64,000 nucleotides of DNA from Antedon mediterranea (taxonomy: Eukaryota > Echinodermata > Crinoidea > Comatulida > Antedonidae): contig NC_092670.1 in the NCBI RefSeq assembly GCF_964355755.1, positions 2,629,001 through 2,693,000 on the forward strand, given 5' to 3'. This document shows positions 38,701-60,380 of this stretch, piece by piece. The notes under the pieces were generated by a model, which was not told the origin of the DNA, ran no database searches, and saw nothing but the letters and a program-made list of their open reading frames with translations. Every line of letters begins with the position of its first letter. The first letter of the stretch is position 1. Made by a program: the position numbers and the translations under genes.

Positions 38701-41700
38701 TCCAGGTACTTCGCTCGGTAGGATTGCAGATTTATTTTGAACTGTAAAAAATTAATTAGAAAAGGAAAATTAAAAATTTACACATAGGAACCGTAGACTT
38801 GCTTGGATCAACTCATACAGTTTTTTTAAAAAGTAAAGACAGACTATTTACAAAGATGCACTACTGTTGAAATATTGCATAAAAGCAATATAACAAGAGT
38901 ACCAACAATTGTTGATGAAAATTACCACAATCATCATGCACCGCAAAATGAAAACTACAGCAATTTGATCAAATCCATTATGTTTTGGTTGTTTTCTGAA
39001 TGAATGAATGATTTCTAAAAGTTTCTACAACCAGTATTTGTTCACTGTTGTGAATAGTTTGAGCCAAATTAATGTAGTAAATTAGATGGCAGTGAGCGAG
39101 AGTAAGTGGATAATGTGATGGCACTTTTATGAAAAGTGTCTTTTCAATTCTTCCAATTCTAAGTTATGTAATGTATAATAAAATACCTTTTAGTACTTGC
39201 ATAGGTCCTTTAAGTTCCATGCGGTTTAAGTTTTTAATAAATGGTTGCATATTTCCTTCACAGATTATGTTTCTCATCTCAAGGTCCATAATCAAATGCC
39301 ACTGATCATCATAAACCTGTTCTGCATCATTATAAAAGTCATTCATTTTCCGTATATCTTTCTCAGTCAGCTCTTCTCCAAATTGTATCAACATTAGTCT
39401 GTGAGGAGTGAATTTCAAAATTGGAATTTTTCTAACATTTTGGTTTGTTCCAATTTCTTTGTAAATTTTACTTGCCAATCCAAATTGTTCTGTTGCTTTT
39501 ATGGTTTCATAAAACAAAGTTAAGTCATGGCTTGTTAAATGTTCTCTCTCCATTAAGAAGTTTAGCAGCTGATTTGTGTTAGATGCTTTATCTAACTGAC
39601 CATTTGACAAGAGATCTTTATACAGAATTTTCAGCTTATTGAGTAAATGACGACGATCATACCACTGTGAAAATTTTAGTTTAATGATTTTAAAGTTAAC
39701 TTGCTCTGGAGTTTCTACAAAAATAAGAACAGAAACATTTAAAAAACAGAAATATTATGGAAAATAAACTATTTTTGGTATGTTTACAATACCAAATTAC
39801 AATAAATTAAATTGTCAATGCCTAAACAATATTGAAAATGACACCAATCCTTTTGAACAGAACATACTTTCTTGAGGACTATCTTCCCGGATTGATTGTC
39901 TACCTGTAAAGAAAGTAGATTGGTACAGTAGTTACAATATCAGTTTGATAAAAGAAATACAAGTTTTATATTATTCATTGCCTTATTAAAGTAGATATTG
40001 TTGATATTGAATACAAAACATACTTTCTAGAGGACCTGGTGGGCTAACGTCTTGTTTACCTGTAAATAAATGGTTTAATATTATAGTTGAAATGTCAGTA
40101 GTGTTATATCAGTAGTAGCAGGTACATGTATTTGCTGTAACTACATTTATTTATACACAGTTGTAGGATGCAGTAAAAGTATTTCTGCATTATGGTAGTG
40201 GATTACTGACTGATTACTTTTTTAATTTTTTATAATTGGACTACTGTACAAGGAATCATAGATAGAAACAAATTGTACAATTGTAAAATGAATTCATTGA
40301 ACCAGGGTCATCATCTCTAAATCACATGTGCCTCAATTGCCAAAATTTCAGTTCATAATTCGCATTAGTTAACACTGTTTAAATATGTGACACGTCCACC
40401 TCAATTTTTGGTTGTGAAAATATTTTAGTGTTTTCATCAAGCAATTAATAAATATCTGACAAGGCTGAAAGTTGCTGTCCAAGCTACTGCAAGTTTCCAA
40501 TCCATATTGTAGCCTTCAGTATAGGCTATCCTAAACTGGAAAATCATCATCAAATGCTTTCTGGTAAAATTGTGAGATTTTGACCCATCATTATGATTGT
40601 TGGACAGGTCTCCATGAGACTATACTTTTTTCTGAGTAAATATTGCATAATATCTATAAACAAGTAAAGTTTGCATATCTCAACTCTATTGACTCAACTC
40701 AACTCAATCCAAGTTTTTTTGGATGGGGAAAGGGGGGCTACTTGACAATGCAATAAAATAAGAAAAATGTTTTTACCTTGTTTTTATTGAAGGATATTCA
40801 AACTTTATTTAAATTTTCATTAAACCAATTGAGGTACATTCAATTTTTAGCAAAATCAGAGATGATGGTGACCCTGGACATTTCTGTTAAATTGGTTGCT
40901 TTGTCATGGAATGACATAATATAGAACCACAGTTGTTTTTAATCTCATTGAATCCCATACAACACATGTAACATACCCAAGCCTGAACTTCTTGATTGTT
41001 GAAGATCCCCTGCAAAAAAAAACTTTTATCTTTGAATTTCATACACAAATTGAACATTACTACTGCCAATTACTGAAGGTGTTATTGTTGAAAACACATT
41101 TTTAATAATATTTAGGGTGTGTGATCATACCAAACTTAATTGTTGTTGTTTTCAACAGTAGTTTTTAAGCTTCAAAGAATTGCTATCCACTCAGACACTT
41201 CAACTAAGAGCTTATTAGTAAAGATATCAGGGTCTTTGTAGTTAGTTTCCAATATTTTTTAGAAGTTCAAATAATGCAAGAAAGAATAATGAAAGAAAGA
41301 AATGACAACTATTGTACTTTTAGAGATCAAGATGGAGAGTAACTTTTATTCATGAAGCATTCTGGGAACTAAGAATTATGAAGTCATACAAATATTTTAG
41401 ATACAGATATGTGATAACACGTATATATATACCCTAATAATTTACTTTATTATTGCTGTTATCACTTTTAGTTTAATACAGTACTTACATACAAATGGTA
41501 ACTCATGTCTTTCATTTGGTTTTTGTAGTGTTAGTATCTTTGTACTAAATTCTTGTTTCTTTTTTTTCTTGTTCTTTCTTGTTACAATAAACATACTCCA
41601 ACTTTCAACTTTCCATATTTCATTAGCAGTTATAGTCTGTAAAACAATTTACATCTTGTTTAGATAATTACTCATGGTATAGAACGTTGGTACAATATGC

Positions 41701-44700
41701 TACTAATTTTTCCACTTAATGTGTACTGATTAAGATATTTTATAGTTAATTGGCTATTAAAATACATTTAGACAAACCAAAAATATGGATATTCCAGAAT
41801 ATTGCACACATTGTCTGTGACCAGCACACAATATGAATCTGCTTTATTTCTCTATCCACAATAATTTTTACTAAAAATTAAAAATAGCAAGTGTTTGCTT
41901 CACGTTTTTACTTGGGGTCATGTTGAATGCACAAAACGAGGTATTTTTCAGTGGTTACCTAACACATTTAATAGTGTGCTTGTTACTTGTTTGGATATTG
42001 ATTTATTTTATGATAGTTTAAATGTATTTAAGTCCGATCTTTGTTTATGTTGTTGTTGCATATTTGAATGTATTATTACCTCCGCCAAGGAGGTTATGTT
42101 TTCACCCCTGTATGTTTGTGTGTGTGTCTGTGAACAGCCTGGAGGCCACAGTTTTTATCCGATTCTCACCAAATTTATCAACAATGATCTATGCCTCAAA
42201 AGCTCGGACGAGTTCGAATTTGAGGGGAAAAGGTCATAGGTCACAACTAACAAAAAAACTATTTTACTGCCTAGAGATGACAGTTTTTATCCGATTCTCA
42301 CCAAACTTAGCCACAATGATCAATGACACATCATATAATTGTGGTTAAATTTTGAAGGGTCAGGGTCAAAGATCAAGGTCCACAAAAAACTAAAAAAAAA
42401 GAAATAAAAAAATAATAAAAAAAAAAACCTCAGTGGGAACTGAGAGGCTGGATACATAACCATTACCATTTCCTCACTGAGGACAAATATTAATACAAAA
42501 TACAAAAATTACACCACACTGTCATCCACAACTTTGTAGTGTGCAGTTAACATATTTACACTTAGAACTAATAAAAAAATATGTAAAAAAAAAATATTCA
42601 GGGGGCATTTTATGTAGGGGAATTTTACAGTAGGCGGAGGTTTGTACTCTCGGAGTACCCTCTAGTTATAGTTTATTATGTTTAGATTCAACCTGTTAGT
42701 GGCGGTTTCATCGCTGTTGGTTGTCAACTGAATAAAATAAAATAAAATAAATTTTAATTTCTGAAATTCAGTAAACAGCTTGCATACATCATAAATTTAA
42801 AATTTGACCCTGTAGAATTTTATTCAAATATTTTGATTGATGACGATGAATGGAATGTTCCAAAGGATCCTCAGGATATTCCGAAATAAATCATTGAATA
42901 AAACCAGTACTGTATGCAAAAACATTTTGGGGTTATAATGAACTATTTTAGAATCTGTGTACTTTGTAAAAAAAATGTTGCTCAACAGCTTTAACCAAGT
43001 ATTTGGGGTTTTCAGGGAATTTTTTAGTGTCGGAATTGATGAACGAAGATTCCTCGAACCGTTCGATTATGATAGCCTAAGATTAAACTCTAGGCCATAG
43101 GCTATAGGTATTTTTTTCACTGGTTAAGAGTATTTCCTCATTGGTACCTCCTCCTTCCTCTTCCTATTATTTTTATACTCTATAATTTATCCTAATAATT
43201 TAACATTTATTGAATTAATCAAATTGTTTCATTCATAGATTTTAATATTTTATTTATTAATCTATGACTTTGCACTTATTTGTATAATCATACCTGTGTT
43301 GGAGGCTTCACATCCCAATCTTCTTTGTTTTCTACTTCAATGTCCATATCAGTGTGCAACAAATCTATATATTTGGGAATTTGTATAGGTATTTCCCCAA
43401 ATAAGTGACTCTCTCTGAATACCTCCTGAAAGTAATGTATAGAAGGAAATCTAGATATAGTCCGGAAGACAAGTGAGACTTTAGTAGATGCAACCCTGGG
43501 GAGTTTGAAGGGTGGAAATCACTTTTCCAAGCTATAGAGACCATGCCAGGCTGCAGGCAGATTTCATCTACATCATCTAATTTTTTTGGATGCCACTTGC
43601 AGTATTTTTTTTTCAATTTGTGCCCTTCTGGAAGAAGAGAGAGCCTCTAACAATGCTGGCTATATGCTTTTATTGTAGGATAGTCAACTTACATTTAAAA
43701 GTAGATACATTTTTTTTAAAGTATAGTAGGTTTGACATTGATTTTCATGACTGAAGCAAATACTCTATTCATTGGGTGGTGACATATTATACAAATTTTC
43801 AATTTTATTACGTATTGAATTACAATCAAAATAATATACAGTGTGACTTTTACAATAAACAAACAATAAATTACCTTTTCTCTATCAGTGTCCCAAGTTC
43901 TTACTCGAAGTTGATACTTGTTAATCAATACCTTTCCAAACACACCTAACCTTGCTGTTTTTTTACAAGGACCTCTATTTGTTATTGTAGGCCTACCAGT
44001 AAGACCATATTTAGAAAAATGTTTTGAATGTACACAACACTGTCCATTGTTTAAAGAAAAGGTTATGTCATCATCTTCATTACTGTCCAGTTTTATTCTT
44101 CTCCATTCACCTTGACACGTTGTAACAAGTAAAGTGAATTCCCAACACTCTTCATCTACAGCATTATGTGGAAATGACAGCAAGCAGTGGTTTTTAAAGA
44201 CTGTGCCTGGTGGTCCACATCTAACAACAGGTGAAAGTATTGTTTCAAGAGGATCTGATAACAAATCACTAGGAAAAGAAGTGTTTTCTAGTGATACTTC
44301 AACATTCAATCCTTCTTCAATTGCTCCAGGATTTATCACCAACTTTGTGTCTTTATCCTTAAGATAGAGAGTTTCGCCTTTGGAGTCCACAATTAACTCC
44401 ACAATTTGGTCTGTGGAATCAAAATGCTTTATAAATTTAATATATGTTGTAATTATATGTGGTTTATTAATATTATAATAATAATAATATTAATAATAAT
44501 AATAATTGCCATGTATTTTTTTTGTGTGCTGTCTTCTGTTCTATGATTTAGATGTTAAAATCTCTTAAAGGTGAAGCTTTAAAATTACCACAGTACATTA
44601 CGGAATAACTGTTAAGCAAATACACAAACATGGTAATTACACTTTTGTTATATAATTATTTTTCTTTTTCCTCCTCACCTGGTATATAATTAAAAATGTT

Positions 44701-53700: not shown

Positions 53701-56700
53701 ATTGTGATAGTGACTTTTCAATTGCCATATATCTTGAAAGAAAACCTTGTCAATTAGTAAGAGGAGAATTTGGCACATGCCTCTTAAGATTTTCCTATTT
53801 CATTGAGTTTGTTTTGAGAATAATAACAAATATAGTCTCTGGTTAAAACATGGGCAGAGGTGCCTTGAAAATAGTAGGTCTAGTTATTTCGAGACACAGA
53901 GGCCATCAAACAAAGAATTGAAAGAGGCAAAGTATATTTGTTTTGAATTTTCAACCACCTCTTTAACCACCTCTTCCATCTTAAATCGAATATCAAAGCC
54001 CAGGTCACAAGTCAGCCCATGTAAAATTCAGTGCTTAGTTTTGGTAGAGCAGAACAGTGAAATATTAGGTGTGAAATGTAATAATAATACGCCCTGCACT
54101 TGAAATTCCTATTAACATTTTTTATTACCCTCATCCATTTTGCTTTCTTCTATTTTAGTTGATTGTGCTGGATTTTCTTTTGACTGTTCTTCTATTTTGT
54201 TTTCTTCCACATATTTCGTGGGAGCATTTTCATTGCCAGAAGCCTGTTTTGCTGATGCTGTTGCACCTTCTTCTTGTATCATACTATTCTTGTTATCAGA
54301 AGCATTTTCTGTTGATGCTGCTGTTGTATTTTGTTTTCCTTTCACTTGTTTCACCATTTCTCTGGCAACTGCTTTCTCATACATTTCAGAAACTTTAGCA
54401 TAAAAGAAGTGTAATTTACTTTTGTATATTATTGTCATGCTTGTATATATACACAGTATTATTTTAAGAATGTTACTATCTTTTTTAAATAGGATAAGAA
54501 TGGAACAAGTCTGGGACAAGGTCTTTGCACTCAAACACAGGATTGGCTAGCATGAATAGCTAAAGCAAAAACAAAAACAACCAATCCTGTGCCTCTCTTT
54601 CTTTGGTGCTAATTTGGTTACTAATTTTGTATTTTGCATTTTTTTTTTATTCTCATGTTACTTACAAGTTTCTGGTGATTGTTCTTTCAAAATTGTTTCA
54701 TTATTACCTTGAGTGTACACTGTTCTTGTTTCTGCTATACCATCAGTTACTTCATGTTTTGGATTAAAACTACAGAAAAATTAATAAACTAAATAATGGC
54801 CATACAGTATTTTTTGTTTTATTGTTTTATTATCATTGTCTGCCTATATTTTAACGATTAAATGTAGTGCCCCAATGCAACCAATTGGTTGCAATGGCAT
54901 TTATGTTGTTATATTGTGTATAAGGTATGTTTTTCCGTCATTAGTAAATTCCCTTAAATCCGTTTTAATAAAAATGGCTAAACTGAGAGGAAATTATGTT
55001 TAAATGCATATTGAATCTAAAATTTACACAGATATATACCCCGGGATTGAAGATAGAGTTTCAATTCAAAACAATCTCATTATACTTTTCATCTCATTTT
55101 CTGTAGATTGTTTTAAACAACATTCAAATCAAATAAAAAATAACATTTATTTCCAAAATAGTGGCATCACCAATAAAGCAAATGCTTGTGTCAGGGCTGC
55201 CAATACAAAACAGACAAAAACAAACAAAATATATAAATATATAAATCACATTTAAATAAATAAATGTCAAGGTTTTCTTACCGTTTCCTTAGTAAAGAGT
55301 TAATAGTAGAAGTTTTTCCTACTCCCTCAAGACCTACAAAAATAACTCTGCCCTGTTTAACTTCAGTTTTTCCTTCTTTCAGAGCTTCATTAAATGCATT
55401 AACTGCTTCTGGTCCTCGAGCCCATATCTCCACAGGTAAGTCTATATACAAATTAATTAGTATAAAAATGAATATTTTATTTCGTTGAAGGGAGAGAATA
55501 ATTTCATATAATGACCGATTGACAGATTCATTAAATTCAAAGAAAATTAGGACAGTCAGGCTTTTCTCCTCATTTAATGAATGAATACTTAATAATTAAT
55601 TATTTGTTTTATTTTATTGTTATAAAGTAAATTGTTACAGTATATGAACTTTAATTTTGTGATAATCATCAACATCAACTTCATCTACTGTAGGCCAATA
55701 TAAAAGGATACTACAGCTCACTATGTCGGTCGGTTTGTCGGTCGGTTGTCGGTCGGTCGGCAAACAATAACTTGAGCATGTGACTGCAGTCATCTATATG
55801 GCCTTGTTATATTTAACAACACATTTAGGATTGGACATTTAGTGTTTTTACAATGAAAATAATATTCTCCATTGAACAAATTAAAACAACAAACAAACTA
55901 TATAACTCAGATTATGGCTGCACTGAATAAATTATACATGTCATGCTCTGTATGTTTGTTTTTGGTGGTGCAAAATATGGCAAAAATATATATGTGTATA
56001 AATGCATTGTGTTCACTTTATTGAATTACTCTTTCCTTTTTGGTAATGAATGTAAATTAAGTGGGTCAAGAATAAAAAGTCAAAATCTAGTTCATTTTAG
56101 CTGTCAAATTGGAGTTAATTGTCCAAGCACAACACTCCTAGATCCACCACAGAGAATATTGAAATTTTTTATTGTATAACTTCGACCAAATGTTGTTTTA
56201 TTTGTTTAGTCTATGTGCATATGTTGGTCAAAATAAATGTTGAATTGAAATGAAATACATCCCTTGCTCATGCAACTGCTCCTCGGAACTGTGCTTGTCA
56301 ATATAATAATATTGTTATTACATTACATTGCCTGCTAGATTTAAATTTAGTATGTCAAGAATCAACAATCTGAAAATAATAAATATCACATAAATATAAT
56401 CACAATAACTTACTATCAATATTGCTTTGCCCTGGTAATTGTAATCCTCTTTTTGCATATTTTCCTTGTAATCCTCTTTTTGCATATTTTCCTTTCCTGT
56501 TAAACGATATGTTTCTCAATGAACACTGATTGGCAGCATGGTGGATGTCGTCATCTGATAGATTGCAATCCACCATGTTAAGCGTCATCAGCTTAGGAGA
56601 CATAATGAGTAATGAACTCAGTGAATTAACATCAAGGTTGTGAAGGTTACTATCAGAGATATCGAGATGATATAATTCTAATTGAACTTGTTTGAGAGAA

Positions 56701-59700
56701 CATTCTGAGACAAAGTCATGAAATACATCACGTGATAGATTCTGAATCCAAACACCGTCACATCTATCTTGAATGCCTAAAATGTGTGCAATAACTCTTC
56801 CCTTTCGCTCCAATGCCATCTTACTACAAAAGTCACTGATACCAAAACCATCATATTGCATACAATACAATTGCATAATTAGACGTATGAAATGCCCATC
56901 ACATTGTACACCTGGACTAATGTAATCAATAAACATTCTTATGGAGGTTAATATATCATCCAAATGATTATTTATTTCTAAATCTTTACTTGTCATGTAA
57001 TTAATTAATTCATTTATCACAGCATCTTTATGTTGTTTTTTAACAAAGTTTAAATCACTTGGCAGATAGCGATATGTTGACAAACGATTTGTAACCCAGT
57101 GCTTGAGGAAACCGCCAGCTTTATCACCAAGGAAACCAATTGCAAATTCTCTTGCTCTGTATAAATGCTCACTCTCTTGTATCACCTCCCACTCATCATC
57201 ATCCAATGGTGTAAGTAATGTTCGTACATCTGAACATTCATTCTCCATACCTTCACTTTCACATAATTTGCACAAGTAAAATCCCACCAATGACTCTACT
57301 ATCAACTTGTGAGGAGGCATAAAAATGTTATCAAATTTAGATTTTGAATTTGACACTTCTTCGTAAACAAACCCAAGTTTTAAGGCCATATCAACCATAG
57401 CTTTGTTCGAATGTTTAGTCAAATCCGTTTTGTTTATTGAAAGTTGGTTTACTTTTAAGCTATCATACATACATTTCCCTAATAAAATCATAGCATTTAC
57501 ATACTTCACTGGTATTTTTTCAAATTCAGAAATCTTTGTTATGTTTTCTCGTTTCTGATTGATTCTCGACTGATTCAAAATACTACGAAAGAATTCTTTG
57601 AAGAGGTCAGTTTTATCTTCGGGGAGACTTTGATTATCTTCCCACAATATACAAAGTGTAAGAAGTATCATCGGGTTTTTGCACATCGCATACGCTTCAG
57701 GATGTTTTAGCTCTCGCTCTCTTAAGCGACGCATTCCAATACGCTGCACCATCAACGTAGGCCTAACTGTTTCAAGATGCGCGTCAGTATCTAATTCCTT
57801 TCTAAGGGATTCTCCCAATTGTGGTTTTTCAAAATACTCAAAGTGTTTGTCGATATACTTTCCTATACTCTCATTGTTGAATCCCTTAACTCTTACATGT
57901 ACATTACATTCTTTCATGAATTCATTAATATTTTCTGATCTTGAAGTAAGAATTACAGTACTGTTTTTTAAGTAGATCTTTCTAAATAGTCCGAGTACGC
58001 TTGGATTATTAAATCTCAATTCTTCTAGTCCATCTAGTAATAACACCACTTTATCGTCATATTTGTTGATGAATTTTGAAATCAACCATGGATCTTCTTG
58101 GAGATCTGTCTCTAAATAGAAATCTACCATATCAATTTGCTTTACAATTAAATCAATGATGTCGTCATCTCTATGTAAATCCCGTACACTTAAAAGAAAT
58201 ACAATTTTACCTTCAAATGATTTAATTGATTGAGTAGCCGTAGCCCAGTTGTATGATAAATGCCTTAATATGGTAGTTTTACCTATCCCACCCTCTCCAT
58301 CTATAAGAGCTCTACATCCAGGTGTGGAGCTGATCACATCTACCACTTCTGTTAATGTTGTTGGTTTGCTTCCTTTATTCTTTTTAGCTTCTTTACGTAG
58401 TTCCATATCGGTAAACATCTGTGAAATGTCAACACTGTATCTACCACGCATTGTTGCTGGTGTAAATATACTGGCCTGACTGCACAGTTCCCTTTGTCTT
58501 TGAAGCAGATATTCTTCTATCTTTTCTAAATATAAAGATTTTTAGCTTGATTAAACTATATAAAGTTTTATTAATATATTATTACATTTATTTATTATGT
58601 GGTATTTCATAAAATTGTTGAATGTTTTGCATTCCTCTAATTATTTTTATGTTTTATTTTTGTATTAATTAAAATTACTACTTTATTGTTATAATGGTTT
58701 TTGTCACGCAATCATAATTAAGCTTCATATAGTGAGTGTGACCCAATATAATTTATGATTATGGTAATAATTTTCAGAATATGAAACTTTAATTTGAAAA
58801 ATATGCTCAACAGAGGGCAGCAAACAGAAAAATATAATTATCACAAAGGATTTTTATGACAATAGAAATTAAGTTGCACTTAGTTTTAAAGTAAAAAAAT
58901 AAAATAAACCTAAAACGTATGAGTGTGAAATTATTCTTATTAAAAACTTAAATATATAACATTAAGACATATTTTTATTTATCTTAGTTATAACACTCTC
59001 TTTATCCATATCAATGACGGTTTGGTGCACTGTATAGGCATACGAACCTAATTAGCCTATTGAAAGAATATTGAAAGAGCGGATATGTTTAGGCCTACTG
59101 TACTTGTAAAATTATCATTAAATCCAAAATCGGTTTATAAATTCTAGCATCTTATATAGTTAGTTTACTTCTTCAGTTTGTTTGATTTTTATTACTATCA
59201 TAATGATGCCATTTGTATTCAAACATATACTTCAGAGGTAAAAATTTAAACTTTAAGGTTTACTATAGACAATTATCATGGGCCCACTGATTTATTATTA
59301 TTATACAGTACGTGATATACAGTATGAATTAAAAGTGTTCAACGTGTTTGATATTATAAGTGATACACTGTACAGTCATACCTGTTTGACCCCAAGGGTA
59401 ATGAAATACATCCAATACTGATAAAATAGTTCAGAAACCTTATAATTGTGTACAAAGCAATTATTGTAGCAGCTTGATTGGCCGGCTTTGAAATTCAATG
59501 ATTATATTGTATAATTATTGTTGCAGTTGATTTATTTTTGACAATCAGTGAATTCAATAACTGAATTATAAAATGGATCTGATTTGCATTATTATAGTAA
59601 ACATTACAAGTAAACTCACCTGTTTCTGATTTAACCTCTTTGTTCATTGGTATCACTGGCTTTGAGTCTGTTTAATAAGCAAATGACAAGAACTGAATTT

Positions 59701-59914
59701 TTACAAGAAAACCAATGGATAATGGCATAAATTAAGTATGACAGTTAAGAAATATAATTCAGTAATGTGTGCAATATGAATGGTAGTTTGTGTGAATAGT
59801 ACATAATGAATAGTAAATCCTATTCATCTCCAAAAATTTATTTTAAAACTTGCTTGAAAAAGTAAATTTATTTTCTCTTACCTGCCATGTTGTCAACTTT
59901 TTCTGTTTTCGTTT
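14599..59914 (-). CDS. Giant NACHT-Roc-COR-Death-ZU5-UPA-DED gene (exon-joined model)
   Basis: Joined model, minus strand, high to low: 59882-59914, 59620-59667, 56414-58525, 55282-55441, 54666-54769, 54129-54392, 52969-53279, 51424-51513, 50915-51091, 50476-50721, 49848-50036, 49296-49454, 48925-49200, 48444-48527, about 46032-46326, 45737-45760, 45570-45596, 45173-45454, 44786-44848, 43875-44410, about 43542-43646, 43294-43425, 41489-41636, 40977-41009, 40024-40059, 39868-39903, 39187-39714, 38667-38741, 38193-38225, 33794-33865, 33430-33510, 17974-18018, 15917-15961, 15463-15507, 14599-14789. Each has AG/GT borders and, apart from two uncertain donors (near 46032 and 43542), the frame is kept throughout. 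About 2,370 codons. Known roles of the modules (NLR oligomerisation ATPase, Roc-COR GTPase, death-fold adaptors) imply a cytoplasmic immune or cell-death scaffold; that function is inference. The start codon is not identified. The 3' micro-exon part is less certain than the NACHT-to-DED part, and could belong to alternative transcripts. Confidence 0.75.
15234..15335 (-). CDS. Possible alternative terminal exon
   Basis: Acceptor TCTATTTACAG is followed by 33 open codons beginning YGIYTSNSWVKIREADCN, rich in lysine, proline and arginine, then TAA directly overlapped by AATAAA. It is open only in phase 0, whereas the neighbouring micro-exons end in phase 1, so it does not join the array without another exon. 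It may be a chance frame or a transposon tail. Confidence 0.25.
   Translation of the reverse strand, partial: YGIYTSNSWVKIREADCNKGRKPRLKPKMKPLA
15463..15507 (-). CDS. Micro-exon, KRSKSEAG repeat (phase 1-1, 45 nt)
   Basis: Bounded by TTTTTAG and GTATGT; encodes KRSKSEAGPLSNAE after a split serine codon. It is a near copy of the exon at 17974-18018, and more than 60 bp of intron upstream of both copies also match, so the pair arose by duplication. Being a multiple of three with equal phases, it can be skipped without a frameshift. Confidence 0.65.
15917..15961 (-). CDS. Micro-exon, KRSKRKAEPSS repeat (phase 1-1, 45 nt)
   Basis: Bounded by CTTTACAG and GTATGT; encodes KRSKRKAEPSSSPK. Same length, phase and leading GTAAACGATCAA as its neighbours at 15463 and 17974. 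Confidence 0.65.
16351..17107. repeat. GGGCCCGATCGTC minisatellite, possibly within a TIR element
   Basis: Two clusters of the motif (A/G)GGCCCGATCGTCTT, at 16351-16520 and 16905-17107, are separated by AT-rich unique sequence. The outer edges are inverted relative to each other: CAGACGATCGGG on the left and CCCAATCGTCTG on the right, which would fit a TIR element whose subterminal repeats have expanded. No target duplication is clear. Open frames through it in both directions (63 and 94 codons) are repeat artefacts. Confidence 0.65.
17150..17540 (-). pseudogene. LINE ORF2 C-terminal fragment
   Basis: The minus-strand frame reads VNNIMKDPTHPLHYCYNLN and then RSGIRLRPPRANLCRTRKSF, ending shortly after. 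This DP(T/S)HPLH...R(L/F)..PRA..R..KSF tail is typical of some LINE ORF2 ends. Only the last hundred or so residues remain. Confidence 0.65.
17974..18018 (-). CDS. Micro-exon, KRSRSEAG repeat (phase 1-1, 45 nt)
   Basis: Bounded by TCTTTTTAG and GTATGT; encodes KRSRSEAGSSSNTE. It sits at the 3' edge of the 15-kb intron that contains the nested transposons. Confidence 0.65.
18152..18191. repeat. Inverted terminal repeat of the Penelope-like element, left copy
   Basis: This ~40-bp segment (TTTCTAGTAGAGAGTCATAG...CTCGGCC) recurs in inverted orientation at 32937-32976 with about two differences. Penelope-like elements often carry terminal repeats in inverted orientation. The pair brackets all the RT and GIY-YIG pieces, so it likely marks the ends of one insertion of about 14.8 kb, including what later inserted into it. 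Confidence 0.7.
18203..18534 (-). pseudogene. Penelope-like element, GIY-YIG endonuclease segment
   Basis: Minus-strand frame, open to the TAA at 18203. It reads FKPHQTLCQILVAPKDK, then VVYRLPC, KVYVGETKRTLRERIEEH and AEHFKITGHELD. A VVYRLPC...VYVGET.R.L..R..EH pattern matches the GIY-YIG endonuclease at the C-terminus of Penelope-like retroelements, which nicks DNA for target-primed reverse transcription. The upstream part of the same frame resumes at about 27673, interrupted by the nested insertions. The domain itself looks undamaged. Confidence 0.85.
18893..19071 (-). repeat. Gypsy 3' LTR
   Basis: 179 bp, nearly identical to 27261-27439. On the element strand it starts TGTTACATT and is preceded by a polypurine tract. 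Confidence 0.92.
19072..19084 (-). promoter_or_regulatory. Polypurine tract of the gypsy element
   Basis: On the element strand the bases just before the 3' LTR read AAGAAGAGGGA, a typical plus-strand primer for LTR retrotransposons. Confidence 0.8.
19418..19802 (-). pseudogene. Gypsy integrase C-terminal region
   Basis: Two overlapping minus-strand frames together cover the pol tail: one reads LRDTPISSDIPSPYTLMFNR, typical of the end of the integrase core, and the other continues with LPWQPAKVVQCTSDRNYTV and a proline/threonine-rich tail ending KFKDHIME and stop. A frameshift therefore lies near 19700. The frame is cut off upstream at about 19802 by an inserted sequence. Confidence 0.8.
19803..21937. 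mobile_element. Insertion (about 2.1 kb) splitting the gypsy integrase
   Basis: The integrase frame stops at about 21937 (NEILVAF...) and resumes at about 19802 (LRDTP...). The inner ends share an inverted ACAAAAAGT (left near 19815, right near 21912), suggesting a TIR element. No transposase was recognised. Exact borders are uncertain by some tens of bases. Confidence 0.5.
21938..22338 (-). pseudogene. Gypsy integrase core
   Basis: The minus-strand frame carries KPIHTSEAMEIIAIDLF, then VDYFTGYIWA and TIISDNGSQLTSE, followed by HRTSVPHHQQANGRAE. The D,D(35)E catalytic residues are visible as DLF, SDNG and NGRAE. A TGA interrupts directly after NGRAE, where an arginine codon would be expected, followed by SIQTLKSMLKK in the same frame. 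The upstream end is cut by the insertion at 22339. Confidence 0.85.
22339..24079. mobile_element. Insertion (1.74 kb) splitting the gypsy integrase upstream of its core
   Basis: The integrase frame is interrupted after the zinc-binding HHCC region, and GGTTT is present on both sides (22334-22338 and 24080-24084), a possible 5-bp target duplication. Near the ends GCGCTAA occurs in inverted orientation (left near 22348, right near 24072). The interior is non-coding, with CG-rich islets. Superfamily unknown. Confidence 0.55.
24085..24368 (-). pseudogene. Gypsy integrase zinc-binding region, with small insert
   Basis: The minus-strand frame reads LAIHDGIILKGSRIIIP, MRPRILNILHKQHQGTEK and RQSVYWPGINADIERIINNC, the HHCC-type N-terminal domain of a gypsy integrase. 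Between the end of the long gag-pol frame (24369) and this part is a ~45-bp AT-rich stretch that introduces a stop and seems to be a later insert. Confidence 0.8.
24369..27107 (-). pseudogene. Gypsy gag-pol: zinc knuckles, protease, RT, RNase H
   Basis: A single 912-codon frame. The gag-like N-terminus (to about residue 170) is followed by two zinc knuckles: one C-X2-C-X3-H-X4-C, the next the canonical C-X2-C-X4-H-X4-C. The protease active site reads VDTCAAKN, where DTG/DTS is usual. RT shows STLDLRSGYWNIPL, FTRLPVGLISAQDVFQ and the catalytic CIKDDILIA, where a tyrosine or phenylalanine is common before the first D. RNase H has TIQCDASMKGLGAVL, NIEREALAVVWAIKHF and SDHKPLEDI. It ends early because of a small insert at 24330-24368. 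Gag and pol sharing one frame occurs in some invertebrate gypsy clades. Long plus-strand frames opposite it are shadows. Confidence 0.92.
27241..27260 (-). other. Primer-binding site of the gypsy element
   Basis: Directly after the 5' LTR, the element strand reads TGGTGACCCCGACC. A TGG start complementary to a tRNA 3' CCA end is the expected position and form. The exact tRNA was not determined. Confidence 0.75.
27261..27439 (-). repeat. Gypsy 5' LTR
   Basis: 179 bp, nearly identical to 18893-19071. About four differences are seen by eye. Confidence 0.92.
27673..28667 (-). pseudogene. Penelope-like element, reverse transcriptase segment
   Basis: Broken minus-strand frames read IMSSIGSVSYNLARFVTDIL, then TSYDVTALFTSVPVDGAIAV, DHGCAMGSPVSPIIANMYME and the catalytic RYVDDT (about 28190-28208), followed by LAFDSHHPLEQKLCVIRTL. 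These are the RT fingers, palm and thumb of Penelope-like elements. In-frame stops occur near 28363, just after YVDDT, and elsewhere, with at least one shift near 28030. It abuts the TIR element at 28668, and the frame resumes at 32709. Confidence 0.9.
31141..32100 (+). mobile_element. Palindromic tRNA-related element, copy A
   Basis: Matches the copy at 51560-52485 in inverted orientation over most of its length. Blocks in order: CATAGCCTATGTAAATACG end, two AATATCATCGTTCTCGAG-type repeats, a tRNA-like head on the minus strand (31399-31470), an unrelated middle, and an inverted repeat around GGGAATGATATTAAGTTC. It lies inside the 28668-32705 TIR element. Confidence 0.7.
31399..31470 (-). ncRNA. 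tRNA-like head (box A/box B) of a dispersed repeat
   Basis: The minus strand reads GTGGCGCAACGGTTGAAGCG, matching a box A (TGGCGCAACGG), and about 40 bases on GAGTTCAAGATC, a slightly off box B. Spacing is that of a tRNA-derived SINE promoter. The copy at 52193-52260 has a perfect GTTCAAGTCC box B. It is probably not a functional tRNA. Confidence 0.55.
32709..32936 (-). pseudogene. Penelope-like element, N-terminal RT segment
   Basis: The minus-strand frame reads MKDPTNTYRNRLLKLLKEL, then CVVPCIYGLPKVHKNHIPLR. The P..YGLPK.HK....LRPI pattern is the RT N-terminal motif of Penelope-like elements. The frame runs straight into the TIR element border at 32708. Upstream coding sequence is missing, so the copy is 5'-truncated. 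Confidence 0.85.
32937..32976. repeat. Inverted terminal repeat of the Penelope-like element, right copy
   Basis: Inverted partner of 18152-18191 (GGCCGAGAACTTTAAAAAGT...CTACTAGAAA). Confidence 0.7.
33044..33070 (+). ncRNA. Hammerhead-ribozyme-like core motif
   Basis: CTGAGGA is followed by a GGAGA / TCTCC hairpin and GAAA, resembling the CUGANGA - stem II - GAAA core of the hammerhead motifs known from Penelope-like element terminal repeats. It lies just outside the 5' part of the Penelope copy. The extra C before stem II and the lack of a checked cleavage triplet make activity uncertain. Confidence 0.35.
33430..33510 (-). CDS. Micro-exon, extended KRS/RS repeat (phase 1-1, 81 nt)
   Basis: Bounded by TTTTATAG and GTATGT; encodes KRSKSKRSRRKRSRS followed by HEPEPPRNAAE. 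The GTAAACGATCAA motif is repeated inside the exon. Together with its flanks it is a tandem duplicate of 33794-33865. Confidence 0.65.
33794..33865 (-). CDS. Micro-exon, KRSRRNRSKSKRSRR repeat (phase 1-1, 72 nt)
   Basis: Bounded by CTTTATAG and GTATGT; encodes KRSRRNRSKSKRSRRKPS followed by RNAAE. The sequence on the donor side (about 33680-33800) repeats that at 33330-33435, so exon plus intron was duplicated as a ~360-bp unit. Confidence 0.65.
33884..34325 (+). pseudogene. LINE-like 3' end inserted beside a micro-exon
   Basis: A plus-strand frame from about 33885 to 34164 (ILKAKHIRNVMCMEMNRW ... FDFNAILNDI) ends with a stop, a short 3' region and a (TTA)n tail at 34307-34325. Comparison with the duplicate at 33510-33560 shows that the copy here has been split by this insertion before ATAGATTACCATG. 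The family was not identified; the tail suggests a CR1-like LINE. Confidence 0.5.
34725..36690. repeat. Tandem repeat, 762- and 830-bp units
   Basis: GCGAGGAGGCTTCGCATTTT starts units at 34725, 35487 and 36317 (the last partial). Units two and three contain an extra 68-bp internal duplication beginning GCTAGAGTACACC that unit one lacks. Units are nearly identical; only a couple of substitutions were seen between the second and third junctions. The 60-67 codon plus-strand frames inside have no recognisable product. Confidence 0.88.
36691..37806. other. Intronic, no feature recognised
   Basis: Lies between micro-exons at 33.8 and 38.2 kb. No additional phase-1 micro-exon could be found here. 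Confidence 0.4.
37807..37843. repeat. 37-bp CTAGA...TCTAG hairpin
   Basis: Near-perfect inverted repeat with core GCGAGCGAAGCGAGC and ends CTAGATGG/CCATCTAG. A 37-bp relative is at 61708-61744. Next to each lies GATGGTTCTCG(G)AAT on the same side relative to the hairpin, so both are ends of one dispersed element family. Confidence 0.6.
38193..38225 (-). CDS. Micro-exon, ELEKSRSSSL (phase 1-1, 33 nt)
   Basis: Bounded by TTTTTTTAG and GTATGT; encodes a split glycine, ELEKSRSSSL and a split glycine. It is a clear sister of 40977-41009 (DLQQSRSSGL), with the DED exon between them. Confidence 0.65.
38667..38741 (-). CDS. Linker exon after the DED exon (phase 1-1, 75 nt)
   Basis: Bounded by TTTTTTACAG and GTATTG; encodes QNKSAILPSEVPGNSSFN and a few more residues. 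It follows the DED exon in phase and has no recognised domain. Confidence 0.6.
39187..39714 (-). CDS. Tandem death-effector-domain exon (DED1-DED2)
   Basis: Open across 528 nt between TTTTTGTAG-type acceptor and GTATTT donor, phase 1 at both ends. DED1: RRHLLNKLKILYKDLL, LLNFLMEREHLTSHDLTL and FYETIKATEQFGLASKIY. DED2: HRLMLIQFGEELTEKDIRKM, then WHLIMDLEMRNIICEGNM and FIKNLNRMELKGPMQVL. Six-helix spacing, the (I/F)GEELT..D pattern and the LL..LE.R..L....L pattern are those of DEDs in FADD, caspase-8/10 and c-FLIP. By family knowledge this surface would polymerise with DED proteins such as an initiator caspase; no caspase domain is present here. The placement after ZU5-UPA is unusual for NLRs, whose DED/Death modules usually sit before NACHT. 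Confidence 0.8.
39868..39903 (-). CDS. Micro-exon, RQSIREDSPQE (phase 1-1, 36 nt)
   Basis: Bounded by CTTTACAG and GTATGT. Flanks resemble those of the other micro-exons (acceptor followed by GTAGACAATCAA, donor GAAAGTATGT). Confidence 0.62.
40024..40059 (-). CDS. Micro-exon, KQDVSPPGPLE (phase 1-1, 36 nt)
   Basis: Bounded by TATTTACAG and GTATGT; same length and ends as 39868-39903. Confidence 0.62.
40977..41009 (-). CDS. Micro-exon, DLQQSRSSGL (phase 1-1, 33 nt)
   Basis: Bounded by TTTTTTTGCAG and GTATGT. Paralogous to 38193-38225. Confidence 0.65.
41489..41636 (-). CDS. Exon following the UPA region (phase 0-1, 148 nt)
   Basis: Encodes TITANEIWKVESWSMFIVTR, then a run of lysines (KNKKKKKQ) and LTLQKPNERHELPFV. 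It accepts the phase-0 donor of 43294-43425 and delivers phase 1, which is what all later micro-exons need. It may be the last strand of the UPA fold followed by a basic linker; that is inference. Confidence 0.6.
42074..42660. mobile_element. ACCTCCGCC-ended repeat
   Basis: Left end ACCTCCGCCAAGGAGG (42079) and right end GGCGGAGGT (about 42635), followed by TTGTACTCTCGGAGTACCC. The interior has two ACAGTTTTTATCCGATTCTC blocks and non-coding A-rich sequence. The related copy at 7367-7735 shows it is dispersed. It sits in an intron. Confidence 0.6.
43294..43425 (-). CDS. UPA-region exon (phase 0-0, 132 nt)
   Basis: Acceptor TTACTTTCAG, donor GTATGA. Encodes EVFRESHLFGEIPIQIPKY, then an acidic stretch HTDMDIEVENKEDWDV. 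The join to the preceding exon is the least certain in the model, because no strong phase-0 donor is visible there. Confidence 0.6.
43542..43646 (-). CDS. UPA-domain exon (3' border uncertain)
   Basis: Acceptor GCATTGTTAG (43647) gives a phase-0 frame RLSLLPEGHKLKKKYCKWHP, then KKLDDVDEICLQPGM. It directly continues the UPA start (LRVRTWDTDREK) of the ZU5 exon, and the E..G.....P..L......D.ICL pattern suits UPA. The frame stays open to 43365, but splicing to 43425 requires a donor upstream; ATG|GTCTCT at 43542 is the only phase-0 GT I found. Confidence 0.5.
43875..44410 (-). CDS. ZU5 domain exon, plus start of UPA
   Basis: Phase 1 in, phase 0 out, 536 nt. ZU5: VDSKGETLYLKDKDTKLVI, LVINPGAIEEGLNVEVSL, LSPVVRCGPPGTVFKNHCLL and SFPHN..., with the GG/GP..........IP.GA.....I.V pattern and the conserved SPVV.CGP.G..F...V.L.L. 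UPA begins at ARLGVFGKVLINKYQLRVR. ZU5-UPA pairs occur in ankyrins, UNC5 and PIDD, usually followed by Death, with the ZU5-UPA pair packing against the Death domain or, in PIDD, self-cleaving at HFS. Here the motif HSKHFSKYGL contains HFS, so autoproteolysis of PIDD type is conceivable. Only the order differs: Death comes before ZU5. Confidence 0.88.
44786..44848 (-). CDS. Linker exon between Death and ZU5 (phase 1-1, 63 nt)
   Basis: Bounded by TTTAATAG and GTATTG; encodes SSYKSTEKQQKPFTFFASEP. Symmetric phase, therefore skippable. Confidence 0.65.
45173..45454 (-). CDS. Death domain exon
   Basis: Phase 1-1, 282 nt. Encodes DDQIIRKVSEEIHNWKLFGV, then HLGLSSLTVTKFGSE, MMNFWRTNIDIQWNQLEVFC and ALIQHGSNNLADMF. 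The I...V...I..WK.LG..LGL....I pattern, a helix 4-5 region ending in a tryptophan, and L..AL...G.NNLA are diagnostic of a Death domain. Death domains pair with other death folds such as those of adaptor proteins or DAPK/PIDD partners. As in DAPK1, it follows a Roc-COR unit. Confidence 0.85.
45570..45596 (-). CDS. Micro-exon, 27 nt (phase 1-1)
   Basis: CTATACC... between TTTTTATAG and GTAAGA; encodes IPSRSHNE flanked by split codons. It joins in frame to the Death exon (GYVDDQ...). Confidence 0.6.
45737..45760 (-). CDS. Micro-exon, 24 nt (phase 1-1)
   Basis: Between CTGTTACAG and GTAAGT; encodes TLKSQDE flanked by split codons. Among the shortest exons of the model. Confidence 0.55.
46032..46326 (-). 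CDS. Exon after COR, unknown fold (3' border uncertain)
   Basis: Acceptor TTTTTTTAG, phase 0. Encodes VLHFLQKELKVFSQKDARGL, EVRMYIPCASSPNIQNAHM and VLPCGSNQMEVKLYRKLFG. The frame stays open to 45970. The next micro-exon needs phase 1; ATCA|GTGGTG at 46032 would provide it, and AAA|GTTATA at about 46098 would not. I do not recognise the domain; it resembles an alpha/beta segment following COR in invertebrate Roc proteins. Confidence 0.55.
46479..48136. mobile_element. Foldback-like element built of a 21-bp quasi-palindromic repeat
   Basis: Ends are inverted: ACGAAAGCCCATTAATGCCA on the left and its complement on the right, with about 90 bp matching by eye. The 8-bp direct repeat ACAATCAT flanks it (46471-46478 and 48137-48144). 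Almost the whole interior is a 21-bp unit alternating AATTACTAATTCGTTCAAACG-like and complementary forms, with the spacer GCCATTTAAAGTATATGTTG occurring four times. A block of about 290 bp near the right is duplicated. Long TIRs of short tandem repeats with 8-9 bp duplications are the hallmark of foldback elements. It lies in the intron between 48444 and 46326. Confidence 0.85.
48444..48527 (-). CDS. Linker exon after COR (phase 0-0, 84 nt)
   Basis: Bounded by ATATTGCAG and GTAGGC; encodes TTIVRTKSIKADSSLEDD and IKPLPEVCKK. No domain recognised. Confidence 0.65.
48925..49200 (-). CDS. COR domain, C-terminal exon
   Basis: Phase 0-0, 276 nt. Encodes KDEHIFYVLSRLKPEPPPQP, FHDFGSYLPDDLFQRAATKF and HVELNIDAEHLVILYVATIK. 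The F.DF..(F/Y)LPD.LFQR...(K/R)F pattern matches the second half of COR in ROCO proteins (the dimerisation part). Confidence 0.8.
49296..49454 (-). CDS. COR domain, central exon
   Basis: Phase 0-0, 159 nt. Encodes EPVMWKAWQRLDTGILEVGL, LKYLWKEFCDSDETFNFFV and LMEKFGLMCASKK. GIL...LL..LW...... F..LMEKF(G/D)L is the strongest COR signature. Confidence 0.88.
49848..50036 (-). CDS. COR domain, N-terminal exon
   Basis: Phase 0-0, 189 nt; acceptor TTCTTACAG, donor GTTAGC (weak). Encodes VHILLKDCEDTENQRFLLEY, LHDIVEILYYPDDEALRDI and DLMKLVDMSKTFITV. LH..G(V)(I)LY(Y/F).D...L.....(D)P.(W)L is the COR start; here DLMKLVDM stands in the place of the usual DP.WL. Confidence 0.85.
50476..50721 (-). CDS. 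Roc-COR linker exon
   Basis: Phase 0-0, 246 nt. Encodes LAEIKKRIWQALKDKPYAA, IENSVPFAQSNASVIMKHIL and RTLPIKWLRGQQEIQSLKKE. This corresponds to the end of Roc (the (I/V)EN...... region) and the helix with (P)IKWL that leads into COR. Confidence 0.82.
50915..51091 (-). CDS. Roc GTPase exon with G4-like motif
   Basis: Phase 0-0, 177 nt. Encodes GQTYPHRMTNLEFILSWIRS and CPPVLLIGTHLNGLKGTEE. GTHLN occupies the G4 position, where Roc domains have (G)THxD or NKxD; the aspartate that recognises guanine is replaced by asparagine, which may weaken nucleotide specificity. Confidence 0.85.
51424..51513 (-). CDS. Roc GTPase exon, central strand
   Basis: Phase 0-0, 90 nt. Encodes IFMVSFAVICVVFNLCDDLD and then APAKVLDPTS. 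It directly continues the switch II motif of the preceding exon. Confidence 0.82.
51560..52485 (-). mobile_element. Palindromic tRNA-related element, copy B (intronic)
   Basis: Inverted relative to copy A (31141-32100). It contains the AAGATTTAACATCCCCGAGG palindrome, ACCTTACCTTGCGAAGAATA, GAGGAGCCGAATCACCGGAT, the tRNA-like head and the CATAGGCTATGTAATAT end. It sits in the intron between 52969 and 51513. Confidence 0.72.
52193..52260 (+). ncRNA. tRNA-like head with perfect box B
   Basis: TTGGCGCAACGGAA gives box A and GTTCAAGTCC (52247-52256) is a perfect box B, with about 45 bases between. No foldable complete tRNA with CCA-ready ends is evident, so this is a SINE-type promoter and not a tRNA gene. 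Confidence 0.6.
52969..53279 (-). CDS. Roc exon: charged repeats and switch II motif DFGGQ
   Basis: Phase 1-0, 311 nt. The first two thirds are lysine/glutamate/aspartate-rich and contain a 34-residue (102-bp) unit in two direct copies, beginning IEKEESDDQTKIPSKIEEL. The exon ends with KFVMNISDFGGQPIYHVMQ, where DFGGQ is the Roc G3/switch II motif. The repeat makes the stretch from P-loop to DFGGQ about 200 residues, against about 50 in a compact Roc. Confidence 0.85.
53421..53596. mobile_element. Palindromic MITE with a hammerhead-like motif
   Basis: Ends are inverted copies of GTTTGCAGTACACCA, and inner arms pair TTGGGTTTCTC with GAGAAACCCAA. In the centre CTGAGGACGAT...GATCGAAAC (53511-53541) resembles the hammerhead core found in Penelope-like elements. 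A related palindrome lies at 60381-60486. Confidence 0.6.
54129..54392 (-). CDS. Roc charged-insert exon
   Basis: Phase 1-1, 264 nt. Encodes SEMYEKAVAREMVKQVKGKQ followed by low-complexity Ala/Ser/Asn/Glu sequence and EENKIEEQSKENPAQ. Acidic and disordered in character; it belongs to the insert between switch I and DFGGQ. Confidence 0.75.
54666..54769 (-). CDS. Roc switch I exon
   Basis: Phase 2-1, 104 nt. Encodes FNPKHEVTDGIAETRTVYTQ and GNNETILKEQSPE. F.P....TDGI is the switch I (G2) stretch of metazoan Roc domains; the threonine of TDG would contact magnesium. Confidence 0.82.
55282..55441 (-). CDS. Roc P-loop exon
   Basis: Phase 1-2, 160 nt. Encodes LPVEIWARGPEAVNAF, NEALKEGKTEVKQGRVIFVG and LEGVGKTSTINSLLRK. 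The Walker A reads GLEGVGKTS. The leading ARGPEAV.AF..AL.EGKT helix is typical of Roc domains of large invertebrate proteins. The exon joins the NACHT exon in frame across a phase-1 intron of 972 bp (55442-56413), which links the ATPase and GTPase halves in one transcript. Confidence 0.88.
55722..55764. repeat. GGTC microsatellite
   Basis: Irregular (GTCG)n/(GGTC)n over about 40 bp in the intron between NACHT and Roc exons. Confidence 0.75.
56414..58525 (-). CDS. NACHT ATPase exon with LRR-like tail
   Basis: One 2,112-nt exon, phase 1 at both ends (TTTAG acceptor, GTAAGT donor). It opens KIEEYLLQRQRELCSQ, then MRGRYSVDISQMFTDMEL, the linker that precedes NACHT in animal NLRs. Walker A GEGGIGKTT (near 58290), Walker B KVVLLLDGLEEL, sensor 1 STVILTSRSE, then VKGFNNESIGKYIDKHF and a winged-helix/helical region. 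The tail has two LRR-like turns (LYHLDISDSNLHNLDVNSL; LMTLNMVDCNLSDDDIH). It ends with a 9-residue unit, KYAKRGLQG, nearly in two copies. By family, ATP binding would drive oligomerisation on ligand sensing; the short LRR set suggests that sensing lies elsewhere. Confidence 0.92.
58526..59619. other. Intron, part of a tandem segmental duplication
   Basis: Sequence such as TGTCACGCAATCATAA, AGTGAGTGTGACCCAATATA and CAACAGAGGGCAGCAAACAG occurs in the same order at about 60210-61250. The two blocks start with the NACHT exon border and its pseudo-copy. Confidence 0.8.
59620..59667 (-). CDS. Linker exon upstream of NACHT (phase 1-1, 48 nt)
   Basis: Bounded by TTAAACAG and GTGAGT; encodes SKPVIPMNKEVKSET and joins in frame to KIEEY of the NACHT exon. 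Confidence 0.65.
59882..59914 (-). CDS. Linker exon upstream of NACHT (phase 1-1, 33 nt)
   Basis: Bounded by TTTTTTAG and GTAAGA; encodes TKTEKVDNMA. It is the most upstream exon found. An ATG is present but the phase implies further coding sequence upstream. Confidence 0.6.
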
Positions 59915-60086: not shown

Positions 60087-60207
60087 GGTTTGCAAAATGT
60101 CGACGTTGTATCTATGTCTCATTATTACTGATGTAAATTCACTGGCCTATCTGCATAATTCCTTTTGTCTTTGAAGCAGATATGCTTCTATCTTTTCTAA
60201 ATATAAA
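60087..60207 (-). pseudogene. Decayed copy of the 5' end of the NACHT exon
   Basis: Read on the minus strand after a TTTAG, it repeats KIEAYLLQRQKELC, then a stop (TAG), then the remnants of MRGRYSVDI as MRHRYNVDI before similarity ends. It corresponds to 58525-58415 and is followed upstream by a copy of the adjoining intron. It is a non-functional relic of a tandem duplication. Confidence 0.8.
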
Positions 60208-60380
60208 GAAAGATTTTTAGCTTCATTAAACTAATAGTATAAATATAAATTGAATTTAATTTCATTAATATATTATTACAAATTGTTATTCATTCTTTTT
60301 TTATTTATGTGGTATTGACTAAACTATATAAAGTTTTATTAATATATTATATTGTTTGAAGGTTTGCATGGCGAATTCAA

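Follow-up and report, generated by a model that had tools for sequence, protein, structure and literature searches.

Gene model at the locus

The window analysed here, the whole 64,000-nucleotide stretch C1:2629001–2693000 of a 354 Mb genome, carries on its minus strand 27 exons that run from 59888 down to 38155 and, once spliced, give a single stop-free open frame of 2134 amino acids. Along this model the predicted domains follow the order NACHT, Roc, COR, Death, ZU5, UPA and tandem DED (Table 1). Donors are GT at 25 of the 26 junctions and GC at the other one (exon 15), and all 26 acceptors are AG. The choice of exons was guided partly by phase, so the open frame is by itself weak evidence, and the related loci described below weigh more. 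Exon numbers run from 1 to 28, and the block at 40945..41009, a possible alternative terminal exon, stands outside the 27.

Table 1. Exons of the model and associated features, in window coordinates
Feature	Position	Strand	Remarks
Exon 1	59882..59888	-	Start codon, ATGGCA|G; ATGGCAG|gtaag also in P3
Exon 2	59620..59667	-	Phase 1-1; identical protein in P3
Exon 3, NACHT	56414..58525	-	Phase 1-1; Pfam NACHT 8.7e-19; best PDB match NAIP, 6.3e-6
Exon 4, Roc P-loop GLEGVGKTS	55282..55441	-	Phase 1-2
Exon 5, Roc	54666..54769	-	
Exon 6, Lys/Glu-rich insert, Roc G1–G3	54129..54392	-	
Exon 7, repeat-rich insert, then Roc G3 DFGGQ	52969..53279	-	
Exon 8, Roc	51424..51513	-	
Exon 9, Roc G4-like GTHLN	50915..51091	-	
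Exon 10, Roc end	50476..50721	-	
Exon 11, COR-A	49848..50036	-	Weak donor ATG|gttagc
Exon 12, COR-A	49296..49454	-	
Exon 13, COR-B	48925..49200	-	Assigned by position after COR-A
Exon 14	48444..48527	-	
Exon 15, COR-B end by position	46107..46326	-	GC donor
Exon 16, linker	45737..45760	-	
Exon 17, linker	45570..45596	-	
Exon 18, Death domain	45173..45454	-	Pfam Death 0.024, below cut-off; P7 homologue 4.6e-5, above cut-off
Exon 19, linker	44786..44848	-	
Exon 20, ZU5 with HF|S (HSKHFSKYG) and first UPA strands	43875..44410	-	Phase 1-0; Pfam ZU5 1.5e-15; UNC5B 4.4e-8
Exon 21, UPA	43294..43425	-	
Exon 22, UPA end	41489..41636	-	Phase 0-1
Possible alternative terminal exon or 33-nt internal cassette	40945..41009	-	Stop at 40945-40947; AATAAA at 40809
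Exon 24, linker	40024..40059	-	Phase 1-1
Exon 25, linker	39868..39903	-	Phase 1-1
Exon 26, tandem DED	39187..39714	-	Phase 1-1; Pfam DED 4.9e-6, below cut-off
Exon 27	38667..38741	-	
Exon 28, tentative last exon with stop	38155..38225	-	AATAAA at 38144

A preliminary description of this DNA had given the gene an extent of 39187–59914. The exons do occupy that span, and the gene seems to continue beyond 39187 to about 38155, where we tentatively place its end. The same description had read UPA from an open frame at 43646–43368, which is not an exon: its inclusion breaks the frame, and the ZU5 exon (end 43875) joins 43425–43294 directly in phase 0. From the end of the ZU5 exon, UPA continues through 43425–43294 and ends in 41636–41489.

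The intron between exons 14 and 15 holds a large degenerate array of 21/42/63-bp units at 46522–48093 (TAATTCGTTTAAACGAATTAC), and the Roc G1–G3 insert in exon 7 contains a coding 102-bp tandem repeat (53039–53247) whose two copies are 97% alike. Upstream of exon 1, at 60095–60276, lies a fragment resembling the start of the NACHT exon, with an in-frame stop by eye, apparently a relic of local duplication. Elsewhere in the window are a repeated block of period 830 bp with inner 68-bp and 37-bp repeats (34900–36700), a 922-residue open frame resembling a gag-pol retroelement (24369–27137) and reverse-transcriptase- or integrase-like frames at 12234–13172 and 22024–22338, all three of these labels being assigned by eye.

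Domain composition of the predicted protein

A domain search of the joined translation recovered in part the modules that had been named for it. NACHT and ZU5 (Table 1), and Roc (2.2e-10) followed by COR-A (1.5e-10), lie above the curated Pfam cut-offs, whereas DED and Death fall below theirs and UPA has no Pfam match. By eye, the NACHT exon shows the motifs GEGGIGKTT and LLLDGLEE, which we take to be Walker A and Walker B, and a short LRR-like tail; no LRR family matched the joined protein in Pfam at E up to 1. A block adjoining the NACHT exon (614–673) is repeated in several paralogues and single in the window.

The Roc domain has the P-loop and DFGGQ, together with a G4-like motif, GTHLN, that departs from the typical THxD; GTP binding and hydrolysis are putative. 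The best match of Roc–COR among solved structures is 3dpu (5.9e-6), listed as ‘Rab family protein’ and presumably the Chlorobium Roco.

For the Death exon, the homologue at the related locus P7 passes the Pfam cut-off (23.9 versus 22.6 bits). A three-row Death profile retrieved no natural Death domain from the PDB at E up to 1, its three matches (E 0.06–0.34) being two designed proteins and one viral phosphoprotein. For the Death exon and the DED exon, alignment-free AlphaFold models had a mean pLDDT of 51.8 and 40.6, respectively; both are poor and support nothing.

The ZU5–UPA module has UNC5B as its best match among solved structures, and the UPA assignment is based on a family profile that tracks UNC5B into UPA. 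One of the two other members of the UPA profile alignment has a Pfam UPA match (2.8e-5). A genome search with Pfam UPA detected two other places, with four exons in total, all outside the family of the window gene.

At the C-terminus, the window DED scores 27.1 bits against a curated cut-off of 35.9. A family DED profile matches cFLIP (5.9e-4), over residues that we take to be DED2, and caspase-8 (0.03), over a span covering both DEDs. Among six DED homologues scanned with Pfam none exceeds the cut-off; L027 and L029 show two DED stretches, and there is no Pfam DED match in the copies from P7 (25% identity) and P9 (20%). One further DED homologue (L028, C1:2540k) aligns as two segments separated by a single base, probably because of a frame shift, and alignment A1 omits it.

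Related loci and conservation of splicing

Exons for NACHT, COR-A, ZU5 and DED are found repeatedly across approximately C1:2.2–3.9 Mb, all in one orientation. Ten loci were examined: the window (P1) and P2, P3, P4, P6, P7, P8, P9 and P11 on C1, and one at C3:27.27 Mb. The full domain order is found at the window alone, the other nine carrying subsets, and the exon order is repeated, each time as a subset, at seven other loci of the C1 cluster. NACHT is followed directly by the Roc exon at five loci (P1, P3, P6, P7 and P11), and a DED exon lies downstream of Roc–COR on the same strand at six (P1, P2, P7, P8, P9 and C3:27.27 Mb). ZU5 is present at four of the ten (P1, P2, P3 and P9). P4 has NACHT and then DED without Roc–COR. 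Conversely, P2, P8, P9 and C3:27.27 Mb have Roc–COR without NACHT in the sequence covered, which at the C3 locus hardly extends upstream; within 5 kb upstream of the Roc exon no NACHT was found at P2 or P9, and at P8 the P-loop exon was not found either. P3 shows neither the last UPA exon nor DED down to C1:2327001. In the sequence covered at P6, Death, ZU5 and DED were not found, the only match being a 13-residue piece of exon 27, and coverage of P11 ends at its Death exon.

Further COR-A or ZU5 matches on C1, for example at 2383510 and 3263506, lie outside the ten loci. Two places about 460 kb apart, C1:2798001–2818000 (L013 and L014) and C1:3263251–3268607, have ZU5/COR matches of identical score and represent a recent duplicate or an assembly duplicate. 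Large clusters of COR-A exons occur at C4:16.0–19.7 Mb and C3:19–25 Mb, with no NACHT inside them among the matches listed.

Splicing is conserved across the cluster. When 112 homologous exons at the seven other C1 loci were projected, the edge fell on AG at 97 and on GT or GC at 94. Where the match reaches the first or last residue of the exon, the figures are 81 of 81 acceptors and 86 of 87 donors; nearly all of the edges off AG (15/112) or GT/GC (18/112) are those where the protein match falls short of the edge. The donor of exon 15 is GC in P1, P2 and P3 and GT at P6, P7, P9 and P11, and that of exon 11 is gttag or gtaag in all eight loci that carry this exon. By domain, dN/dS ranges from 0.17 to 0.62 apart from the comparisons of DED with P2 and of Death with P2 and P3: the former gives 1.40, a value based on a very small number of changes (dS 0.010), and in the Death exon neither copy differs from the window. 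Against the more distant P6, P7 and P9, values are 0.38–0.48 over all compared domains. Together these sequence comparisons are good evidence that the parts are coding and spliced.

One gene or several

The preliminary description had joined the NACHT exon (56414) directly to the Roc P-loop exon (55441) in phase 1, and this join was confirmed. The NACHT exon ends ..GATA|gtaagt and the Roc exon begins atatag|ACTT, and the same join is found at all five loci with both exons, the window included. The intron is always of phase 1 and measures 972 bp in the window, 3951 bp in P3, 660 bp in P6, 264 bp in P7 and 263 bp in P11. P7 and P11 have a shortened NACHT exon with its donor kept and apparently homologous, and in P6, P7 and P11 the Roc acceptor lies one codon upstream of its position in the window. 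Since P7 is nearly a copy of P11, and P1 closely resembles P3 along most of its length, the five joins amount to about three lines.

These observations bear on whether the exons belong to two or three adjacent genes that merely look joined, namely one for an NLR-type NACHT protein, one for Roc-COR-Death-ZU5-UPA and one for DED. Such an arrangement would fit the NACHT exon being 84% identical to an NLR-type NACHT exon at C3:3101650, far from any listed COR-A match, as well as the Roc exons of P2 and P9 that lack a nearby NACHT and the NACHT-DED pair at P4. Genome-wide, four of the 85 COR-A matches listed, all on C1, have a same-strand NACHT match less than 20 kb upstream, a comparison made by eye among the best-scored matches. 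Against separate genes, all five loci with NACHT and Roc have donor and acceptor in phase 1, and the introns of 264 and 263 bp at two of them leave little room for a terminator plus a new promoter. Moreover, the linker exons before the DED contain no Met, in the DED exon Met first occurs within the domain, and DED follows Roc–COR at six loci. We thus regard adjacent genes as improbable. A single open frame, splice sites kept among the copies and dN/dS values that for the most part lie well under 1 fit the single scaffold proposed earlier, with its two nucleotide-binding modules and its death-fold domains; that all exons form one gene we infer, with fair evidence, from related loci in the same genome.

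The 3′ end of the gene

Between UPA and DED, a 33-nt block at 41009 resembles the start of exon 28. Read through to the stop at 40945–40947, the model gives a form of 1907 amino acids without DEDs, and some transcripts may accordingly stop ahead of the DEDs. A gene with two alternative ends, the shorter stopping after UPA at about 40945 and the longer including the DEDs, is consistent with the small exon with a stop and AATAAA lying between UPA and DED, with the similar exon that closes the model, and with related loci, as P2 has the same arrangement and P4 has two such blocks ahead of its DED. The agreement between the window and P2 says little, because they are near-copies. Conversely, in most copies GTATG comes directly after the 33-nt block, with GTTTT in one P4 copy, and the block could be an internal cassette; the blocks may be either terminal exons or cassettes. 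We consider two ends quite possible, at somewhat below even odds, and compatible with the main reading developed below.

Origin of the window copy

Including introns, the window is 97–98% identical to P3 over 53.7–43.0 kb. Identity to P2 is 96–99% between 44.5 and 37.8 kb; across most of the span 51.6–48.1 kb it is about 87%. The nearest copy is accordingly P3 for the 5′ part and P2 for the 3′ part. The NACHT exon is itself composite: in four segments of its middle part, identity to the C3:3101650 exon is 91–97%, where P3 reaches 59–91%, and its ends are nearer P3. This mosaic suggests exchange between chromosomes, and exchange between genes probably helped to make the window copy.

The window copy could instead be a non-working chimera that arose by recent recombination between neighbours and is now decaying. 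The change of nearest copy from P3 to P2 and the patchwork NACHT exon would agree with this, as would a full order seen once and the DED dN/dS of 1.40 against P2, a value from few changes. However, the frame and splice dinucleotides are intact, and dN/dS against P6, P7 and P9 is well below 1. We hold a decaying copy to be very unlikely.

The ZU5–UPA module and its HF|S motif

The window ZU5 ends in HSKHFSKYG and thus carries HF|S, the cleavage motif of PIDD type. Twenty-nine family ZU5s were tried for the motif, and two (L052 and L053) were dropped where the match stops short of it. Among the 27 aligned, a chosen subset of the 63 ZU5 matches listed that includes near-copies, F is present in 27 and H in 26, with Ser in the remaining one, as in NLRP1. 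F is followed by Ser (12 sequences), Cys (11) or Thr (4), and the next column holds 11 different residues. On the best tree of these 27 sequences the Ser/Cys/Thr label requires nine parsimony changes and is scattered almost as in shuffles; support is weak at 8 of the 24 inner forks, and the well-supported branches alone require 3 to 4 changes for each residue. The P3 ZU5 exon also has HFS and was left out of the tree. ZU5 exons with F and then Ser, Cys or Thr also cluster at C4:16.0–19.7 Mb.

Ser, Cys and Thr are the residues able to carry out an acyl shift, and we therefore read the position after F as a kept nucleophile. Packing of a small residue could explain part of the pattern, because the three are single-base neighbours of similar size. 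Known cleavage sites lie at the end of ZU5, PIDD being cut at HF/S and NLRP1 and CARD8 at SF/S, according to D'Osualdo et al. (PMC3210808). By analogy, the window gene may encode an autoproteolytic sensor like NLRP1 and PIDD, from which a freed UPA–DED fragment would seed DED assembly.

The module could instead serve for interaction only, without self-cleavage, as in UNC5B, the best solved match, which has QLG at the motif position and for which we know of no self-cleavage. Cleavage of the window protein is indeed a prediction. Yet all 27 aligned family ZU5s keep F plus one of Ser, Cys and Thr amid variable neighbours, which speaks against this reading, and we consider a pure interaction module unlikely. 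The HF|S ending of the window ZU5 and the family-wide conservation of F plus Ser, Cys or Thr are the new elements here, and the motif suggests a mechanism.

Proposed mechanism

From the domain order, the conserved splicing and the conserved motif we infer, by analogy with known sensors, how sensing, cleavage, gating and output would be linked. Our main reading, to which we give a probability of roughly 0.55, is that the window holds one gene of a locally expanded family and encodes a sensor of about 2100 amino acids, presumably cytosolic, that would cut itself in ZU5, be gated by NACHT and Roc-COR and have UPA-DED-DED as its output; such a protein would be an unusual inducer of cell death under the control of two switches. 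ZU5 would cut at HF|S, as in PIDD, NLRP1 and CARD8, with the halves remaining bound, and NACHT and Roc-COR would act as two nucleotide-controlled locks on the N-terminal half. Displacement or degradation of that half would free the UPA-DED-DED fragment, which would cluster via UPA, form DED filaments and recruit a caspase-8- or FADD-like partner. Precedents are described in two papers: NLRP1B releases a bioactive C-terminal fragment once its N-terminal part is lost (PMC7857732), and CARD8 is cut into a ZU5 half and a UPA–CARD half (PMC9213247).

A bolder version, which we find tentative and somewhat unlikely as a whole, is a double-locked self-cleaving sensor. Here ATP and GTP switches in series would restrain UPA-DED-DED, DED caspases would be triggered without CARD or PYD, the cutting residue would have been swapped repeatedly among Ser, Cys and Thr, and the NACHT exon would have been refreshed from NLR genes on another chromosome.

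Should the message be expressed, one polypeptide would combine an ATPase of NLR type with a Roc–COR GTPase, a direct natural test of whether two switch types can gate the same output. If the main reading is true, the self-cleavage logic of NLRP1 and PIDD would extend to a DED output. In addition, the presumed cutting residue varies among Ser, Cys and Thr within the family, which makes the chemistry of the proposed autoproteolysis testable by simple expression.

Comparison with known systems

The premise of the preliminary description that NACHT and ZU5-UPA normally occur in separate proteins was wrong, as NLRP1 has the order NACHT–LRR–FIIND(ZU5–UPA)–CARD. NLRP1 is described as carrying NACHT and FIIND (PMC11508797), FIIND as the ZU5-UPA module (PMC3210808), and NACHT-Zu5 genes are named for early-diverging animals (PMC12909245). 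DED-NACHT and DD-NACHT combinations are reported for amphioxus, sea urchin and sea anemone (PMC2575513), TIR–ROCO and MyD88–ROCO proteins for Aplysia (PMC9334734), and TIR- and Death-linked Roc/COR genes for sea anemones (PMC5094078). Among the literature matches listed and the text passages covered, PMC8195603 included, no NACHT–Roc–COR protein is described. What appears new is thus the Roc-COR between NACHT and ZU5-UPA, together with the whole order, extending two known kinds, NLR/FIIND and ROCO.

The likeness to NLRP1 lies in a NACHT upstream of ZU5-UPA with a cleavage-type motif and in a predicted C-terminal death-fold domain. The window gene differs in adding Roc-COR and Death between NACHT and ZU5, in having a predicted tandem DED in place of CARD and HF|S in place of SF|S, and in the absence of PYD from the Pfam scan of its protein. 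PIDD has the order LRR-ZU5-ZU5-UPA-Death. With it the window gene shares HF|S at the end of ZU5, UPA and a predicted death-fold tail, whereas it has one ZU5, added NACHT and Roc-COR, terminal DEDs and Death before ZU5. As in the ROCO proteins (LRRK1/2, DAPK1 and bacterial Roco), there is a Roc-COR core with P-loop and DxGGQ, but here NACHT stands in front and ZU5-UPA and DED behind, a K/E-rich insert separates G1 from G3, and the Pfam scan finds no kinase.

Invertebrate NLRs of the DED-NACHT, Death-NACHT and NACHT-Zu5 kinds likewise combine NACHT with death-fold or ZU5 partners in expanded families; as described in the accessible text of PMC2575513, PMC12909245 and PMC11508797, they lack Roc-COR. 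The ROCO immune genes of Aplysia and sea anemones resemble the window gene in pairing Roc-COR with immune adaptor domains and, as far as the accessible text of PMC9334734 and PMC5094078 describes them, are without NACHT, ZU5-UPA and DED. Finally, cFLIP and caspase-8 are both matched by the family DED profile; unlike them, the window protein has no caspase-like domain in the Pfam scan and carries its DEDs at the C-terminus of a predicted sensor.
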